From assembly GCF_900106785.1 (NCBI RefSeq), contig NZ_LT629845.1:1124466-1188465 (forward strand): a stretch of DNA of 64,000 bases, given 5' to 3'. The position numbers and the translations under genes were made by a program. This document shows, piece after piece, positions 16,949 to 23,829 of this stretch. Under the pieces are notes generated by a model. That model did not search any database, was not told the DNA's origin, and worked only from the letters and a program-made list of their open reading frames with translations. The stretch's first letter is position 1. Each line of letters opens with the position of its first letter. This DNA comes from Prevotellamassilia timonensis (GTDB lineage Bacteria; Bacteroidota; Bacteroidia; Bacteroidales; Bacteroidaceae).

Positions 16949-16956
16949 TCTGACTC

Positions 16957-17000
16957 CGTTGGCGGAATTAAGGCAATCCCTTAACTCCGCCAACGTTTTT
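16957..17000 (+). terminator. Rho-independent terminator after the C10 protease
   Basis: GTTGGCGGA (16958-16966) pairs with TCCGCCAAC (16986-16994); an inner TTAAGG/CCTTAA extends it and TTTTT follows at 16996-17000. The GTTGGCGGAAT word is also the outer end of F1 repeats, so this terminator may derive from one. Confidence 0.75.
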
Positions 17001-17096
17001 ACACCCAGTTTTGTTACCCCAAAGTAGCAAACCAGAGTATTTGAAAAGCCACACAGCCTCAAAGTCAATTATTTATTGTTTTTTCTTGCATTTTGC

Positions 17097-17127
17097 TTTG
17101 CTATTTCAGCTATTCACTTTACATTTG
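17097..17127 (+). promoter_or_regulatory. trp operon promoter
   Basis: TTTG (17097-17100), 19-bp spacer, TACATTTG (17120-17127): an exact Bacteroidota-type promoter. Transcription would start near 17133, giving a leader of about 250 nt before trpB that contains the leader peptide and attenuator. Confidence 0.75.
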
Positions 17128-17155
17128 CAAGCGTAGACAACAAGAAACGACAAAT

Positions 17156-17221
17156 ATGCTTTACAACAATCTAAATAATGAGTATTGGTGGCGCTGCTTA
17201 CAACTTTCCGTCGTAAGCTGA
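17156..17221 (+). CDS. trpL: trp operon leader peptide with tandem Trp codons
   Basis: A 21-codon ORF, ATG at 17156-17158 and TGA at 17219-17221, beginning MLYNNLNNEYWWRCLQ. Two adjacent TGG codons (17186-17191) sit just before the first arm of the leader hairpins. It lies 29 bases after the -7 box and ends inside the segment that can form either hairpin, the geometry expected of a ribosome-sensing trp leader. The peptide would act only through its translation: low charged tRNA-Trp stalls the ribosome on the TGG pair. The identification rests on the codon pair, position and RNA arms together. Confidence 0.75.
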   Translation: MLYNNLNNEYWWRCLQLSVVS

Positions 17222-17310
17222 CTTACCGTACAATCCTAACAGAATGCCATAGTTGATTATGATAATTCTTAGCGGCCCGTCAATGCTTACGACGAGGCCG
17301 CTTTAATTTT
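17196..17310 (+). promoter_or_regulatory. trp attenuator: alternative hairpins and leader terminator
   Basis: Four pairing segments are visible. Segment 1 GCTTAC (17196-17201) can pair with GTAAGC (17213-17218). Segment 2 CGTCGTAAGC (17209-17218) is perfectly complementary to segment 3 GCTTACGACG (17285-17294). Segment 3 also lies within the terminator hairpin, AGCGGCC (17271-17277) with GGCCGCT (17296-17302) plus inner CGTC/GACG, followed by TTAATTTT. Stalling at the Trp codons would mask segment 1, free segment 2 to take segment 3 and prevent termination; a ribosome reaching the stop codon covers segment 2 and lets the terminator form. This is classic attenuation logic, inferred from sequence. 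Confidence 0.75.
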
Positions 17311-17383
17311 ATAAGCGGGCATTCAACTAAAGCTATTACGAACACCTGATTACAACCAATAACCTTACAAACAACTGATATAT

Positions 17384-18613
17384 ATGAACCAATACGACGT
17401 TACAGACAATGGTTACTTTGGCCGCTACGGCGGTGCTTACATTCCCGAAATTTTACAGAAATGCGTTGAAGAGTTGCGCATTAACTACCGCCGCATAATT
17501 GACAGCGAAGACTTCAAAAACGAATTTGATGCTCTGCTGCGCGACTACGTTGGCCGCCCGTCGCCACTCTACCTGTCAAAGAACCTGAGCAAGCTCCATG
17601 GCTGCAAAGTGTATCTGAAACGCGAGGACCTCAACCATACTGGCGCACACAAAATTAACAATGCCATTGGCCAGATACTGGTTGCACGCCGCATGGGCAA
17701 AAAACGCATTGTGGCCGAAACTGGTGCCGGACAACATGGTGTGGCCACTGCCACAGTGTGCGCGCTGATGGGAATGCCTTGTGTGGTGTACATGGGCGCA
17801 CTTGATGTGCAACGCCAACGCCCCAATGTGGAGAAAATGCGTTTGCTCGGGGCTGAGGTAGTTGCTGTAAAAAGCGGCAACCAAACGCTGAAAGATGCTT
17901 GCAACGAAGCCATTCGCGACTGGTGCTGCCACCCAGAGGACACCTTCTATCTGATTGGTTCGACTATGGGGCCACACCCCTACCCCGACATGGTGGCCCG
18001 CTTGCAAAGCGTAATCAGTGCCGAAATACGCAAGCAGCTGCAGGAAAAGGAAGGCCGCCCCACACCCGACTATTTGGTGGCTTGCATTGGCGGAGGCTCG
18101 AATGCCGCCGGCACCATCTTCAACTTCCTAAACGACGACGATGTCAAAATAGTATATGCCGAGGCTGGCGGCAAAGGAGCCGAAAGCGGCATGACGGCTG
18201 CCACACTCAGCATAGGTCAGGAGGGCGTGTTACACGGTTTTCGATCACTCATCATACAAGACAATGACGGACAGATAGTAGAGCCATACTCCATATCGGC
18301 CGGACTGGATTACCCTGGCATTGGCCCGCTCCACGCCCACCTTGTAAAAACAGGCCGCGCACAGGCTTTGGCCATCAACGACGACGAGGCCCTTGCCGCA
18401 GCCTATGAGCTTAACCGCATTGACGGCATATTGCCCGCACTCGAGTCGGCACACGCCCTGGCTGCACTGCACCGGCTTACCTTCAAGCCAACCGACATTG
18501 TGGTAGTAACCCTTTCGGGACGCGGCGACAAGGACATGGAAACCTACCTGAAACATGCGCCACAGGGCGAATGCCCCACACGCTATGAGGATATCAAGAA
18601 CAACCTTCGCTAA
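17384..18613 (+). CDS. trpB: Tryptophan synthase beta chain
   Basis: TrpB, 409 residues; PLP enzyme that joins indole and serine to give tryptophan, in complex with TrpA encoded at the end of the same operon. The PLP lysine is Lys90 in HTGAHKINNAIGQ; KKRIVAETGAGQHGVA, the phosphate-binding CIGGGSNAAG and the C-terminal VTLSGRGDKDME are all present. First gene of the operon trpB-E-G-D-C-F-A, about 80 nt downstream of the attenuator. trpE follows after 17 nt. Full length and intact. Confidence 0.97.
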   Translation: MNQYDVTDNGYFGRYGGAYIPEILQKCVEELRINYRRIIDSEDFKNEFDALLRDYVGRPSPLYLSKNLSKLHGCKVYLKREDLNHTGAHKINNAIGQILVARRMGKKRIVAETGAGQHGVATATVCALMGMPCVVYMGALDVQRQRPNVEKMRLLGAEVVAVKSGNQTLKDACNEAIRDWCCHPEDTFYLIGSTMGPHPYPDMVARLQSVISAEIRKQLQEKEGRPTPDYLVACIGGGSNAAGTIFNFLNDDDVKIVYAEAGGKGAESGMTAATLSIGQEGVLHGFRSLIIQDNDGQIVEPYSISAGLDYPGIGPLHAHLVKTGRAQALAINDDEALAAAYELNRIDGILPALESAHALAALHRLTFKPTDIVVVTLSGRGDKDMETYLKHAPQGECPTRYEDIKNNLR

Positions 18614-18630
18614 AAAAGCAGTATCGACAA

Positions 18631-20043
18631 ATGTTTCATTATACCATTAAAAGCATAGCACTGCCAGGCGACCTCAGCACCCCCGTCAGCACTTACCTTA
18701 AAGTGCGCGACTTGTTTGCCCAAAGCGCCCTGATGGAGAGTTCAGACTATCATGGCAGTGAAAACAACCGTTCGTTTATCGGACTTGAGCCTCTGGCCTC
18801 GTTCAGCGTGAGCCACGGCAGGGCCATCATGCTCTACCCCGACAAGACGGAGCATCAAGTGGACATTACCGACAGTTACAGTGTGTCTGACGCCTTTGAC
18901 GACTTTATCAAGATGTTCAGCGTCGAGGGCAACGACAGTGCCTATTGTGGTCTGTATGGTTACACCTCGTTCAATGCGGTTCGCTACTTTGAACACATTG
19001 ACGTAAAGGATAGTAAAGAGGCCAAAAATGACGCGCCCGACATACATTATATTATGTACAAATACCTGTTGGTGTTTAACGACTTCAGCAGCGAACTCAA
19101 ATTGCTTGAAATGCTGGCAGACGGTGAAAGCAGTCACGCCGACGAAATTGTGCGTGCCGTAATGAGCCGCAACTACGCCACCTACACATTTCATGCCGTG
19201 GGCCCGACCACATCGCCATTAACTGACGAGGAGCACAAGGCTAACATACGCCGCGGCATAGCCCACTGCAAACGCGGCGATGTGTTTCAGATTGTACTCT
19301 CACGCCGCTTTATACAGCATTACGAGGGCGACGACTTTGAACTTTACCGTGCCTTGCGCCGCATCAACCCCTCGCCCTACTTGTTTTACTTCGACTTTGG
19401 CGGATTTCGTATATTCGGCTCTTCGCCCGAAACGCACTGCCGCATCGAGGATAATGGCATGGCCTACATCGACCCCATAGCGGGCACCACACGCCGCCAA
19501 GGCAACACCGAGGCTGATGCCAAAGCTGCAGCGGCTCTGCTGGCCGACCCCAAGGAGAATGCCGAACACACCATGCTTGTCGACCTGGCCCGCAACGACC
19601 TTAACCGCCACTGCTCAGAGGTGGAAGTTGAATTTTTGAAGGACACACAATTCTACAGCCATGTCATTCACCTTGTGAGCCGCGTCAGAGGACGTGTGCG
19701 CCCCGGCACAAATGCCATCAAACTGCTGGCGGACACTTTCCCGGCTGGCACACTGAGCGGCGCACCCAAAGTGAGGGCACTGCAACTCATCAGCCAGTAC
19801 GAGCCGCACAACCGCGGAGCCTATGGCGGCTGTATCGGATTTATAGGGCTGAACGGCACACTCAACCAAGCCATCACCATTCGTTCATTCGTCAGCCGTA
19901 ATGGCGAGCTGTGGTTTCAAGCCGGAGGCGGCATAGTGGCCGCAAGCGATGAGGAATACGAACTGCAGGAGGTTAACAACAAACTGGGCGCTTTGCGCAA
20001 AGCCATTGATATGGCCGAACACGCCTCAACACAAACCAAATAA
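18631..20043 (+). CDS. trpE: Anthranilate synthase component I
   Basis: TrpE, 470 residues; converts chorismate to anthranilate using ammonia from TrpG. Chorismate-binding features include GSSPETH, DPIAGTTRRQG and HTMLVDLARNDLNR, and the C-terminal VQAGGGIVA-like block reads FQAGGGIVAAS. The N-terminal ALMESSD resembles the LLES motif that binds tryptophan in feedback-inhibited TrpE enzymes, so end-product inhibition is likely in addition to attenuation. It is separated from trpG by only 11 nt, as expected for subunits of one complex. Confidence 0.96.
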   Translation: MFHYTIKSIALPGDLSTPVSTYLKVRDLFAQSALMESSDYHGSENNRSFIGLEPLASFSVSHGRAIMLYPDKTEHQVDITDSYSVSDAFDDFIKMFSVEGNDSAYCGLYGYTSFNAVRYFEHIDVKDSKEAKNDAPDIHYIMYKYLLVFNDFSSELKLLEMLADGESSHADEIVRAVMSRNYATYTFHAVGPTTSPLTDEEHKANIRRGIAHCKRGDVFQIVLSRRFIQHYEGDDFELYRALRRINPSPYLFYFDFGGFRIFGSSPETHCRIEDNGMAYIDPIAGTTRRQGNTEADAKAAAALLADPKENAEHTMLVDLARNDLNRHCSEVEVEFLKDTQFYSHVIHLVSRVRGRVRPGTNAIKLLADTFPAGTLSGAPKVRALQLISQYEPHNRGAYGGCIGFIGLNGTLNQAITIRSFVSRNGELWFQAGGGIVAASDEEYELQEVNNKLGALRKAIDMAEHASTQTK

Positions 20044-20054
20044 CACGCTGCGTC

Positions 20055-20627
20055 ATGAATATTCTACTTATTGACAATTACGACTCCTTTACCTACAATC
20101 TTTATCAGTATATGGAGGAGGAAGGCGGAAAGGACACACACATTTGCGTGATGCGCAACGACCAGTTTGAAATGGAGCACGTTGCAAAATTCGACAAAAT
20201 CGTTCTGTCGCCAGGGCCGGGCATTCCGTCGGAGGCGGGATTGCTCGAGGCAGTTATCAAAGAATATGCCGCCACCAAGCCCATCTTGGGCATTTGCCTT
20301 GGCGAGCAAGCCATTGGCGAGGTGTTTGGAGGCGAACTGTTTAACCTTCCAAAGGTATTTCACGGAGTGCAAACTCCAGCACACATCATTGCCGACGATT
20401 ATATATTTAATGGGTTGCCACACGACATCATGGTAGGACGTTACCACTCATGGGTGGTAAAGAACGAAGGCTTGCCCGCCTGCCTGCAAGTGACTGCCAC
20501 AAGCGACGAGGGACAGATAATGGCACTGCGACACACCCAATATGATGTGCATGGCATACAATTTCACCCCGAGTCTATTCTGACGCCTACGGGACGTCAG
20601 ATGATTGCAAATTTCGTTAACCACTGA
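20055..20627 (+). CDS. trpG: Anthranilate synthase component II, glutamine amidotransferase
   Basis: TrpG, 190 residues, a class I glutaminase that supplies ammonia to TrpE. The triad is visible: nucleophile Cys81 in ILGICLGEQAIG, His171 and Glu173 in IQFHPESILTPTG. The usual GHQ after the nucleophile is GEQ here. N-terminus LLIDNYDSFTYNL is typical. No trpD fusion: the phosphoribosyltransferase is a separate gene starting five bases after the stop codon. Confidence 0.95.
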   Translation: MNILLIDNYDSFTYNLYQYMEEEGGKDTHICVMRNDQFEMEHVAKFDKIVLSPGPGIPSEAGLLEAVIKEYAATKPILGICLGEQAIGEVFGGELFNLPKVFHGVQTPAHIIADDYIFNGLPHDIMVGRYHSWVVKNEGLPACLQVTATSDEGQIMALRHTQYDVHGIQFHPESILTPTGRQMIANFVNH

Positions 20628-20631
20628 TTAC

Positions 20632-21627
20632 ATGAAAGCTATACTTGAAAGGCTGTACCAGCATGACACCCTGTCGCGTGCCGAAGCCCACGATTTGCTG
20701 CTGGGCATTGCCGATAAAATGTATAATGACGCACAAGTGGCCTCGCTGCTTACCGTCTACCGTATGCGCGACATCAGAGTGGACGAACTGCTCGGATTTC
20801 GCGATGCACTGATCGAACGCGCCTTGCCCATTGACCTGAGCGAATTTGCAGCACTCGACATTGTAGGTACGGGGGGCGATGGCAAGAACACATTCAACAT
20901 ATCAACCTGTGCCTGCTTTGTAGTGGCTGCAGCCGGCTACAAAGTGGCAAAGCACGGCAACTACGGTGCATCATCGGTGAGCGGCGCGAGCACAGTGCTC
21001 GAGCATCATGGCATTAAATTCACTAACGACACCGACAAACTGAAACGCAGCATCGACCAATGCGGCATGGTATATCTGCACGCCCCACTGTTTCACCCCG
21101 CATTAGCGGCCGTTGGTCCCATCAGGCGGGCAATGAAGGTGAAAACCATCTTCAACCTGCTCGGCCCGTTGGTCAACCCCTCACACACTGCATATCAACT
21201 GCTCGGTGTGGCCAATCTGCAGCAAATGCGGCTCTACACTAACGTACTGCAAAAGATAGGCATTGGTTTTACGGTAGTGACCAGTCTTGACGGGTACGAC
21301 GAGATTTCGCTTACAGACAATTTCAAAGTCATGTCAAACCACTCTGAAAGCATTTATCGCCCGTCGCAGTTAGGACTTGTCATGGCTCCCCCACAAGCCT
21401 TGCATGGAGGCAACACGCCTGAAGCTGCCGCACAAATATTCGACAACGTGCTGCGCGGAAAGGCCACAGACTTTCAACGCGACTGCGTGCTGACCAACGC
21501 GGCTTTCGGCATTCACACCATTTGCCAGGACAAGGACATTGACACTTGCCTTGAAGAGGCACGTGCCGCACTGCTTAGCGGCAAGGCGCTGAAGACTTTT
21601 GAGCATTTTGTGGCACTCAACTCCTGA
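20632..21627 (+). CDS. trpD: Anthranilate phosphoribosyltransferase
   Basis: TrpD, 331 residues; transfers phosphoribose from PRPP to anthranilate. The PRPP-binding loop DIVGTGGDGKNTFNIST (about 78-94) and the KHGNYGASSVSGAS anthranilate-site block are present, with GNY where many bacteria have GNR. The start MKAILERLY at 20632, five bases after the trpG stop, gives the family length; a longer frame from 20605 would overlap trpG and adds no conserved sequence. Confidence 0.95.
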   Translation: MKAILERLYQHDTLSRAEAHDLLLGIADKMYNDAQVASLLTVYRMRDIRVDELLGFRDALIERALPIDLSEFAALDIVGTGGDGKNTFNISTCACFVVAAAGYKVAKHGNYGASSVSGASTVLEHHGIKFTNDTDKLKRSIDQCGMVYLHAPLFHPALAAVGPIRRAMKVKTIFNLLGPLVNPSHTAYQLLGVANLQQMRLYTNVLQKIGIGFTVVTSLDGYDEISLTDNFKVMSNHSESIYRPSQLGLVMAPPQALHGGNTPEAAAQIFDNVLRGKATDFQRDCVLTNAAFGIHTICQDKDIDTCLEEARAALLSGKALKTFEHFVALNS

Positions 21628-21660
21628 CCCCTCCCCCGTGCCATCATAAAAAACAACGCT

Positions 21661-22449
21661 ATGCAAAACATACTTGAAGAAATAGTTGCAAACAAGCGCA
21701 TCGAAGTGGAGCAGGCCAAACTATTGGTTTCGCTCGACGAACTGAAAAAAGCAGCCGACAGCGCCCCACCCGTGCGCAGTTTGCGAAAGTCGATAGAGAG
21801 CCACCACGAAGGGGGCATCATTGCCGAGTTCAAGCGGCGTTCGCCATCAAAAGACTGGATTAACCGCCACGCCAAAGTAGAGGATATCATACCCTCATAC
21901 GAAAAAGCCGGGGCGGCAGGGCTGTCGATACTGACGGACCACAACTATTTTGGCGGCACGCTACAAGATGTGGTCAGGGCAAGAAGCCTGACCCACCTGC
22001 CCATATTGCGCAAGGAGTTTGTGGTTGATGCCTACCAACTGTACGAGGCACGTGCGGCAGGCGCAGATGCCTGTTTACTGATAGCTGCCGCCATTGGCGC
22101 CGAACGCTGTCACGAACTGGCTATGGTGGCACACAACATAGGGCTTGAAGTGATACTTGAAATTCACCAAGCCGAAGAGTTGGAGGCGTTTAGCCACAAC
22201 GTTGACATTGTTGGCGTGAACAACCGCAACCTGAAAGTGTTCAAGACGGACCCTTCACAATCCGTAGCACTTTTCGACATGCTGCCCAAGGGGGCGCTGC
22301 CAATTTCGGAGAGCGGACTACTCGATGCCAACATTGCCCGCAGGCTGCATGGCACTGGCTACAAGGGTTTTCTCGTGGGCGAAGCGTTCATGAAAACGGC
22401 CGACCCCGGACTCGCACTTAACAATTACATCAAATGCCTTGCCCAATGA
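21661..22449 (+). CDS. trpC: Indole-3-glycerol phosphate synthase
   Basis: TrpC, 262 residues, (beta/alpha)8 barrel; cyclises CdRP to indole-3-glycerol phosphate. Key blocks are IIAEFKRRSPSKDWI with the catalytic lysine, LSILTDHNYFGG, LRKEFVVDAYQLYEARAAGAD, and VGVNNRNLKVF. The enzyme is not fused to TrpF as it is in enterobacteria; instead its TGA overlaps the trpF ATG (ATGA at 22446-22449), implying translational coupling. Confidence 0.95.
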   Translation: MQNILEEIVANKRIEVEQAKLLVSLDELKKAADSAPPVRSLRKSIESHHEGGIIAEFKRRSPSKDWINRHAKVEDIIPSYEKAGAAGLSILTDHNYFGGTLQDVVRARSLTHLPILRKEFVVDAYQLYEARAAGADACLLIAAAIGAERCHELAMVAHNIGLEVILEIHQAEELEAFSHNVDIVGVNNRNLKVFKTDPSQSVALFDMLPKGALPISESGLLDANIARRLHGTGYKGFLVGEAFMKTADPGLALNNYIKCLAQ

Positions 22450-23063
22450 AACTCATAAAGGTATGCGGCATGCGTAATGCCGAAAACATTCGGGCGGTTG
22501 AACAAGCCGGGCCCGACTGGATGGGATTTATATTTTACGAACCCTCGCCACGCTATGTGGCCGAAATTCCGGCCTACATGCCACAGCAGTGCAAACGCGT
22601 TGGGGTGTTTGTTCACCCACAATTTCGCGATGTAGTTGAAAAGGTTAAGGCGTTCGGACTACAAGTTGTGCAATTTCATGGCACGGCTTCACCCGATATG
22701 TGCGACACGTTCAAGCAGCGCGGCCTTACCGTTATACGCGCCCTGCCCGTAACCGAATCTTTTGTGGCCGACACGGCTGAATATACTGGCAAGATTGACT
22801 ACTTCTTGTTTGATACCCCTACGCTCAAGTTTGGCGGTAGCGGACGGCGCTACAACTGGAACTTGCTGCAACGCTATACTGGCCCGACGCCCTTTTTGCT
22901 GAGTGGCGGCCTGTCACCACAATCTATCAACGACATCAAAACATTCAAACACAAATATTTGGCTGGCTACGATCTTAACAGCGGATTTGAAACGGCACCT
23001 GCCATGAAGGACGCTGCTGCCATAGCTAACTTTATTAACATCATACACAACGGCAATGAATAG
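22446..23063 (+). CDS. trpF: Phosphoribosylanthranilate isomerase
   Basis: TrpF, 205 residues; Amadori rearrangement of PRA to CdRP, the step before TrpC. The catalytic cysteine sits in IKVCGMRNAENI (residues 3-14) and the catalytic aspartate in DYFLFDTPTLKFGGSGRRYNW; LLSGGLSPQSIND is the phosphate-binding loop. The start at 22446 makes a four-base overlap with trpC and restores the standard N-terminus MKLIKVCGM; an in-frame ATG four codons earlier is less likely. The 3' end overlaps trpA by 8 nt. Confidence 0.95.
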   Translation: MKLIKVCGMRNAENIRAVEQAGPDWMGFIFYEPSPRYVAEIPAYMPQQCKRVGVFVHPQFRDVVEKVKAFGLQVVQFHGTASPDMCDTFKQRGLTVIRALPVTESFVADTAEYTGKIDYFLFDTPTLKFGGSGRRYNWNLLQRYTGPTPFLLSGGLSPQSINDIKTFKHKYLAGYDLNSGFETAPAMKDAAAIANFINIIHNGNE

Positions 23064-23829
23064 AATTAAAGATTTGTTTGAACATAAAAGCAAAGGCATT
23101 CTCTCCGTATACTTCTGTGCAGGCCACCCCACACTTGACGGTACTGCCGACACGCTCAAAGCACTGCAAAACGGCAAGGTGGACATGGTTGAAATTGGCA
23201 TACCCTTCAGCGACCCCCTGGCCGACGGCCCCACCATTCAGCAAGCATCAGCCACTGCGCTCAAGAATGGCATGACGCTGCACAAACTATTTGACCAACT
23301 GAGCAACATACGCCACGACATTCACATACCACTCATATTGATGGGCTATCTTAACCCCATTTTACACTATGGTTTTGAAGCATTTTGCAAACGTTGTCAA
23401 GAGGTTGGCATAGACGGGCTGATTATTCCTGATTTGCCTTTCGACCAATTCAAGGCTGAATACTTAAAAACGACTGAGCAATACGGGCTCGAAGTCATAT
23501 TCCTTGTCACGCCCGAAACGCCCGAAGCACGCATTCGCGAAATTGACGCCTATTCGCACGCATTTATCTATGCCGTAAGTTCGGCATCTGTCACGGGTGC
23601 CCAACAATCATTCTCCGACGCCAAACAGGCATACTTCAACCGACTTGAACAAATGCACCTCAACAACCCCCAACTGGTGGGATTTGGCATTTCAAACCGT
23701 GCCACGCGCGAAGCCGCAGATGCGCACACGGCCGGGGTGATTGTGGGCTCGAAGTTTGTCACGCTCCTGGCCGAAAAACATAACGCACAAGAGGCGGTTA
23801 CGGCTCTTGTCGAGGCGTTGCAGCAATAA
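23056..23829 (+). CDS. trpA: Tryptophan synthase alpha chain
   Basis: TrpA, 257 residues; retro-aldol cleavage of indole-3-glycerol phosphate, passing indole to TrpB. Catalytic residues are visible in MVEIGIPFSDPLADGPTIQ (glutamate) and GLIIPDLPFDQ (aspartate); YAVSSASVTGAQ and VGFGISNR follow. Last gene of the operon; the hairpin at 23866 closes it. Confidence 0.96.
   Translation: MNRIKDLFEHKSKGILSVYFCAGHPTLDGTADTLKALQNGKVDMVEIGIPFSDPLADGPTIQQASATALKNGMTLHKLFDQLSNIRHDIHIPLILMGYLNPILHYGFEAFCKRCQEVGIDGLIIPDLPFDQFKAEYLKTTEQYGLEVIFLVTPETPEARIREIDAYSHAFIYAVSSASVTGAQQSFSDAKQAYFNRLEQMHLNNPQLVGFGISNRATREAADAHTAGVIVGSKFVTLLAEKHNAQEAVTALVEALQQ

Follow-up and report, generated by a model that had tools for sequence, protein, structure and literature searches.

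The DNA upstream of trpB in Prevotellamassilia timonensis very probably carries an element for ribosome-mediated attenuation of trp operon transcription (probability roughly 0.86), as judged from its sequence and from folding models. The element lies in the window, the whole stretch of 64,000 nucleotides that was analyzed, and computation gave its parts, their conservation and covariation in relatives, and three folding states of the window's own RNA.

Parts and folding states of the trp leader

All of the parts are located on the plus strand. The leader ORF (17156-17221; MLYNNLNNEYWWRCLQLSVVS) contains 21 codons followed by a TGA stop at 17219-17221, and Trp leaders are also found in relatives. 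Codons 11-12 are tandem in-frame Trp codons, TGG TGG (17186-17191), which would be the sensing codons and correspond to WW, WWW or WRW in relatives. This short ORF, in which the codon for the amino acid under regulation is repeated, is a feature by which ribosome-mediated attenuators are recognized. Segment 1 (GCTTAC, 17196-17201) is the partner of segment 2 in ribosome-free RNA according to the MFE folds and the covariation of hairpin 1:2, and this hairpin contains 6 bp, formed by GCTTAC at 17196-17201 and GTAAGC at 17213-17218. Segment 2 (CGTCGTAAGC, 17209-17218), with the leader stop codon adjoining its 3' side, is common to hairpin 1:2 and the antiterminator, as supported by sequence, folds and covariation. 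It is the exact reverse complement, over 10 bp, of the antiterminator target GCTTACGACG (17285-17294), which comprises the terminator loop and the inner 3' arm and is supported by both complementarity and covariation.

The terminator, identified from sequence and folds and from its covariation in relatives, has a 5' arm AGCGGCC-CGTC (17271-17281) and a 3' arm GACG-(A)-GGCCGCT (17291-17302). The stem is formed by AGCGGCC (17271-17277) with GGCCGCT (17296-17302) and, further in, by CGTC (17278-17281) with GACG (17291-17294), with a bulged A at 17295 and a 9-nt loop. It is followed by an interrupted T-rich tract, TTAATTTT (17303-17310), where the premature 3' end is expected. A generic terminator scan (loop 3-8) listed no terminator at the window's leader, because the hairpin is bulged and its loop has 9 nt. 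The terminators of relatives also have T-rich tails, although the hairpin finder used for them demanded at least 4 T in 8.

A Bacteroidota-type promoter, TTTG-N20-TACATTTG (17097-17128), precedes the leader. Its boxes, TTTG at 17097-17100 and TACATTTG at 17121-17128, are 20 nt apart and match what we take to be the Bacteroidota promoter consensus (-33/-7). Of 108 relatives, 97 have TANNTTTG at most 90 nt 5' of the leader start, compared with 45 of 1380 control windows. Downstream, 81 nt separate the hairpin from the start of trpB (17384), the first gene of the operon trpB-E-G-D-C-F-A (17384-23829), which was delineated from ORFs and NCBIfam names. The products of trpB, trpG (with a subfamily model), trpD, trpC, and trpA passed the NCBIfam curated cut-offs, and the best NCBIfam matches of trpE and trpF, anthranilate synthase I and phosphoribosylanthranilate isomerase, were both below cut-off. 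The leader ORF, the TGG TGG codons, the 10-bp and 6-bp pairings, the terminator, and the promoter before trpB had all been named in the original prediction, and each was recovered base for base at the coordinates given there.

Folding energies gave z = -2.0 for the whole leader of the window and z = -3.1 for its post-Trp part, values taken as more than chance. With nothing masked, the window's RNA folded into hairpin 1:2 plus the terminator (-31.3 kcal/mol). With segment 1 masked, it formed the antiterminator without the terminator (-27.1 kcal/mol), and the antiterminator helix was lengthened by 4 pairs that involve 17280-17283, at the top of the 5' arm. With segment 2 masked, the terminator formed (-23.5 kcal/mol). 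ATGCCATAGTTGATTATGATA (17244-17264 in the window) is part of the spacer that separates segment 2 from the terminator; it lies within a small predicted hairpin and is the same at locus L084, despite a trpB that is only 80% identical.

In the mechanism proposed from these parts, RNA polymerase would start near 17135, a position estimated from the -7 box, with a ribosome translating the 21-codon leader behind it. When Trp-tRNA is scarce, the ribosome would stall on UGG UGG and cover segment 1, leaving segment 2 free to capture the terminator loop and inner 3' arm as they emerge (10 bp, with 4 bp more at the top of the 5' arm); the terminator could then not close, and trpBEGDCFA would be transcribed. 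When Trp is plentiful, the ribosome would continue to the leader's stop codon, which adjoins segment 2, and cover that segment, the terminator would form, and transcription would end at approximately 17303-17310. A leader that is not translated would form both hairpin 1:2 and the terminator. We infer leader translation, stalling, termination at the hairpin, and a kinetic switch in relatives from sequence. Translation in Bacteroidota is not known to depend on Shine-Dalgarno starts.

Conservation, covariation, and relation to RF01692

The comparison comprised 138 trpB loci: the window's, the best 80 of 570 from relatives, 29 added from the genus, and 28 added from the family. The added loci were the best-scoring ones, 29 of them new from 42 matching genus genomes and 28 new from 142 matching family genomes. 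Among the 129 distinct trpB upstream regions of these best-scoring loci, 110 have a WW or WRW leader, 2 of which start with GTG. The other 19 comprise 5 upstream of trpB2-like genes and 14 upstream of canonical trpB, and two of the 14 (L041, L044) have less than 310 nt of upstream sequence. An ATG-started ORF with WW or WRW was present in 109 of 126 full trpB upstream regions, compared with 5 of 126 when the opposite strand was read and 52 of 1728 other 500-nt windows. By eye, the leader peptide consensus is approximately M..VNTYWWWRxLQLxxS.

Several individual loci deserve mention. Two of the 14, L004 and L005, belong to the window's genus and have a leader with one Trp codon between Arg codons, MITLHQNIRRWRRLLHIVVS (L004 2705, L005 2693). 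L004 retains GTCGTAAG and a hairpin with CTTACGAC, with no T tract directly behind the hairpin. These leaders are possibly decaying or re-tuned. Two other genomes of the window's genus, G020 and G039, in which only the trpB2-like form of trpB was matched, have a trp-type leader before the trpB2-like gene (L140, SANWWWRNSRLRQS; L143, NAFSWWRRLQQHTS). Upstream of the trp leader in L084, positions 544-653 gave a sub-threshold match to the Bacteroides sRNA BTnc049 (63.8 bits; cut-off 81.9).

Covariation was analyzed in an alignment of 96 leaders. From the 110, we dropped 9 in which the terminator or register looked wrong (L029, L047, L066, L075, L098, L102, L104, L105, and L119) and 4 near-duplicates, leaving 97, and then L090 because of its register. 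The window's terminator was placed by hand, as the automatic finder had picked another hairpin. In the antiterminator, 713 of 761 cells were standard pairs (93.7%, compared with a shuffled mean of 90.4%), and there were 36 two-sided changes compared with 12.6 in the shuffled alignments (maximum 19; 200 shuffles). The other two helices were also well supported in the 96 leaders: hairpin 1:2 had 711 standard pairs in 764 cells and 53 two-sided changes (shuffle maximum 19), and the terminator had 1030 standard pairs in 1076 cells and 154 two-sided changes (shuffle maximum 50).

The signal persisted in a set of 38 sequences that excluded the window and its genus. In these, the antiterminator had 96.0% standard pairs compared with 92.9% after shuffling, a level reached in 0 of 500 shuffles, and 14 two-sided cells compared with 4.4 (0 of 500 shuffles); only 3 pairs showed a two-sided change, a number that 35 of 500 shuffles also reached. 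Slid controls for the antiterminator dropped to 21-57%. Hairpin 1:2 and the terminator together had 96.4% standard pairs and 76 two-sided cells compared with 22.1 (0 of 500 shuffles). Across the 96 leaders, the sixth base of segment 2 and its partner base in the terminator loop were A:T in 63, G:C in 27, G:T in 3, and other combinations in 3, and the terminator stem alone does not account for this covariation. On the TrpB tree, the fewest changes at the two positions are 6 and 4, and supported branches gave 3 independent pairs, about 2 concordant and 0 discordant; this is not significant, and the sign test cannot reach significance because the events are few. The Trp-dependent attenuation proposed in the original prediction is supported by these results: loss of the Trp codons or of the two alternative pairings in relatives had been named as counting against it, and both are conserved and covary.

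The leader resembles a catalogued RNA, RF01692 (Bacteroid-trp, 'Bacteroidete tryptophan peptide leader RNA'; Weinberg et al., 2010, PMC2864571), which is named once in the main text of that paper, in a table. In a passage of another paper, Bacteroid-trp is likened to the E. coli leader and is placed before the trp operon of F. psychrophilum (PMC6414381). Like RF01692, the window's element stands before trp genes in a member of the Bacteroidota, has a leader with UGG codons, and has the 1:2 core CAACU...GUCGUAAG; a short ORF with Trp codons before the trp biosynthesis genes of a Bacteroidota genome is present. The RF01692 model itself gave no match in the window at the gathering cut-off (49 bits) and none in 16950-17450 at E<=10. 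RF01692 has an outer stem in which leader codons around the Trp codons pair with bases 3' of segment 2; the MFE fold of the window's whole leader contains a short outer stem, and the model score is not reached. The cut-off was passed in 0 of 58 genus genomes, with 6 at E<=1, and in 29 of 151 family genomes, with 75 at E<=1, in both cases under strict filters that lose weak matches. Canonical trpB was matched in 25 of these 58 genus genomes. The RF01692 model (131 positions) ends within the terminator 5' arm in aligned loci, and the antiterminator target is absent from it because the model stops inside this arm.

A covariance model, R1, was built from 38 relatives judged to be outside the window's genus, including the RF01692-passing loci L112, L117, L120, and L125. 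It matched the window at 17183-17310 on the plus strand (51.4 bits; E 4.8e-7 over 173,935 bases), and no other site in the 3.48-Mb genome matched at E<=1. At E<=0.1, R1 matched 29 of 58 genus genomes, and the strongest matches of the genus search were L140 and L143 (76.5 and 82.1 bits, respectively); 55 of 198 phylum genomes matched at the same threshold. At E<=0.01, it recovered 19 of the 24 trpB loci given to it, the exceptions being L083 (E 0.83), L092, L093, L098, and L101. Among 29 loci read from the 55 R1-matching phylum genomes, 18 have a Trp leader and trpE and 11 do not, and all 18 are in the window's class. On this evidence from sequence, the window's leader is homologous to the RF01692-passing loci and presumably works like them, although it is not an RF01692 match by the Rfam criterion.

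Wiring of the antiterminator and alternative readings

In the textbook attenuator of the E. coli type, segment 2 pairs with the 5' arm of the terminator. This is not the arrangement of the window's leader, nor of most of its relatives. The loop plus 3' arm was the better partner of segment 2 in 91 of 97 trpB-type leaders, the window included, with 5 preferring the 5' arm (L002, L021, L074, L083, and L084, of which L002, L083, and L084 are in the window's genus) and 1 tie. Among the 13 leaders left out of the alignment, the corresponding numbers were 9, 3, and 1, and totals were unchanged when the count was redone with the window's hand-set terminator. In the trpE-first leaders from other families of the window's class, the loop plus 3' arm was preferred in 16 of 18, the remaining two counting 1 each for the other outcomes. 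One trpE-type leader, L183 (MLTQNKYTNRWWLLTK), seems to use the 5' arm (GTCGGG/CCCGAC) in textbook fashion, unlike most relatives. No description of the loop and 3' arm wiring was found in the literature searched; Lopatovskaya et al. (2010) is a likely source of earlier predictions.

A leader of the textbook kind was found elsewhere in the same genome. At L146 (G000:C14), approximately positions 1329-1490 contain a Phe/Tyr-rich leader (MLTNAFYFYGFYFYFAGQAERDVACQHQ, FYFYGFYFYF) and a strong terminator before pheA (1492-2322), and Rfam matches at this locus were sub-threshold only (e.g., Thr_leader, 23.6 of 55 bits). A comparable leader was present in 25 of 30 family pheA loci read. Like the trp leader, these have a leader peptide rich in the sensed residues, a terminator before the gene, and a competing segment. 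This segment is commonly AGCGGGA, and in all 25 pheA leaders its best complement is the 5' arm of the terminator, with 0 of 25 favoring the loop and 3' arm. By its sequence features, the L146 leader looks like a pheA attenuator. A pattern search for his- and aspartate-type attenuators at the hisG locus (L145) and at four amino-acid-kinase loci (L147-L150) gave no convincing run-type leader and a few hits that were intragenic, lacked a T-run or fell on the opposite strand. Little weight attaches to this negative, because the identical patterns missed the L146 leader, which was spotted by eye.

The two competing structures are conserved and mutually exclusive according to folds and covariation, yet at full length the leaders rarely switch at equilibrium. 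With segment 1 masked, the terminator was kept in 95 of 96 leaders, and only the window's switched. Simple equilibrium switching is therefore borne out by the window's sequence and is rejected as the general mechanism (1 of 96), which would need a kinetic step. RNAs truncated by 8 nt were folded to represent a transcript whose last bases may still lie in the exit channel of the polymerase. With the final 8 nt of the stem missing and segment 1 masked, the antiterminator was favored in 92 of 96 leaders; it was preferred in 34 of 96 with nothing masked, in 0 of 96 with segment 2 masked, and in 27 (compared with 92) of 96 when segment 2 was shuffled and segment 1 masked. With segment 1 masked, the number fell to 47 of 96 at 4 nt short and to 6 of 96 at 0 nt short. 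These models suggest a switch that is kinetic in the family and at equilibrium in this genome. We incline slightly to the view that the trp wiring is class-wide, covering trpB-first loci of the family and its relatives and trpE-first loci of other families, and that it differs from the textbook: segment 2, which resembles the 5' arm, would capture the loop and 3' arm on their emergence from the polymerase, making the switch kinetic and dependent on tight timing between ribosome and polymerase.

The same folds bear on the reading that the attenuator is real and that segment 2 meets the loop in a pseudoknot or kissing contact, tuning pausing or terminator strength and not acting as an exclusive antiterminator. 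Retention of the terminator in 95 of the 96 full-length equilibrium folds with segment 1 masked would fit such a contact, as would the loop base that takes part in the covariation. On geometric grounds, coexistence is hardly possible in the window, where the 10-bp helix ends only 1 nt from the basal 3' arm; moreover, 92 of 96 leaders form the nested antiterminator when the 3' arm is 8 nt short, and the window switches at equilibrium, so that we regard this reading as unlikely. It is very unlikely that the element is a decayed copy of an ancestral attenuator with no regulatory role in this strain. Its bulged terminator and interrupted T tract, together with the two same-genus loci that have a single Trp codon, could point that way, but every segment is intact and still has its complement, the window's own sequence switches between the folds, and the R1 score is 51.4 bits.

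Action in trans by the leader peptide or by the leader RNA left after termination, with cis attenuation secondary, appears highly improbable. The trp leader peptide of S. meliloti is reported to act in trans (PMC7298713), and the peptide studied here is conserved beyond Trp; such conservation is expected anyway, because the codons for the conserved post-Trp residues lie in segments 1 and 2, where pairing restricts the choice of bases, and the element remains adjacent to trp genes, including at trpE-first and trpB2-type loci. Another form of Trp control (T-box, TRAP, or riboswitch) with an incidental short ORF seems extremely improbable. T-box and TRAP are known trp regulators elsewhere, but the Trp codons are conserved and no Rfam family reached its gathering score in the window; the T-box in particular gave no match in the window at the gathering cut-off, nor in 16950-17450 at E<=10. 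Within the leader, known Rfam families gave two chance-level matches (E approximately 4) and none over cut-off. The ribosome-mediated attenuator remains our preferred reading.

Comparison with other systems and biological meaning

The window's leader shares with the E. coli-type trp attenuator the tandem Trp codons, the stop codon at segment 2, the terminator, and the logic of stall-dependent antitermination. It differs in its segment 2, which takes the loop and 3' arm instead of the 5' arm, and in its Bacteroidota-type promoter. The term "classic" in the original prediction is thus apt for the logic and does not fit the pairing, which is not mainly with the 5' arm. Actinobacterial trp attenuators, termed classical in their description, also have 2-3 UGG codons, a terminator, and an antiterminator, and they belong to another phylum and differ in sequence (PMC1262725). 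In Flavobacterium psychrophilum, transcriptome data revealed structured 5' elements before pheA, hisG, and other genes with 'strong clues' for leader-peptide attenuation (PMC9723704), so that this kind of pheA attenuator is already known in the phylum; the description of these elements there gives no pairing architecture, and Trp and tryptophan are absent from the main text of that paper. In Bacteroides thetaiotaomicron, short ORFs in long 5' UTRs, such as that of BT_4401, are described as reminiscent of attenuating leader peptides, in a main text that does not mention Trp or tryptophan (PMC7366714).

Taken together, the kind of leader is known (RF01692), and the window's is a member that the Rfam model does not see, with a wiring for which no description was found in the literature searched. 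The catalogued RNA RF01692 gains named segments, and a whole genus can be missed by an Rfam model. The trp and phe leaders form a natural pair with opposite antiterminator wiring, and since the pheA leader of the family has the textbook wiring, both wirings can be compared within one cell. To our knowledge, transcription-translation coupling has been little studied in Bacteroidota. Attenuation requires that a ribosome closely follow the polymerase, and a working attenuator would therefore be indirect evidence on this coupling in the phylum.
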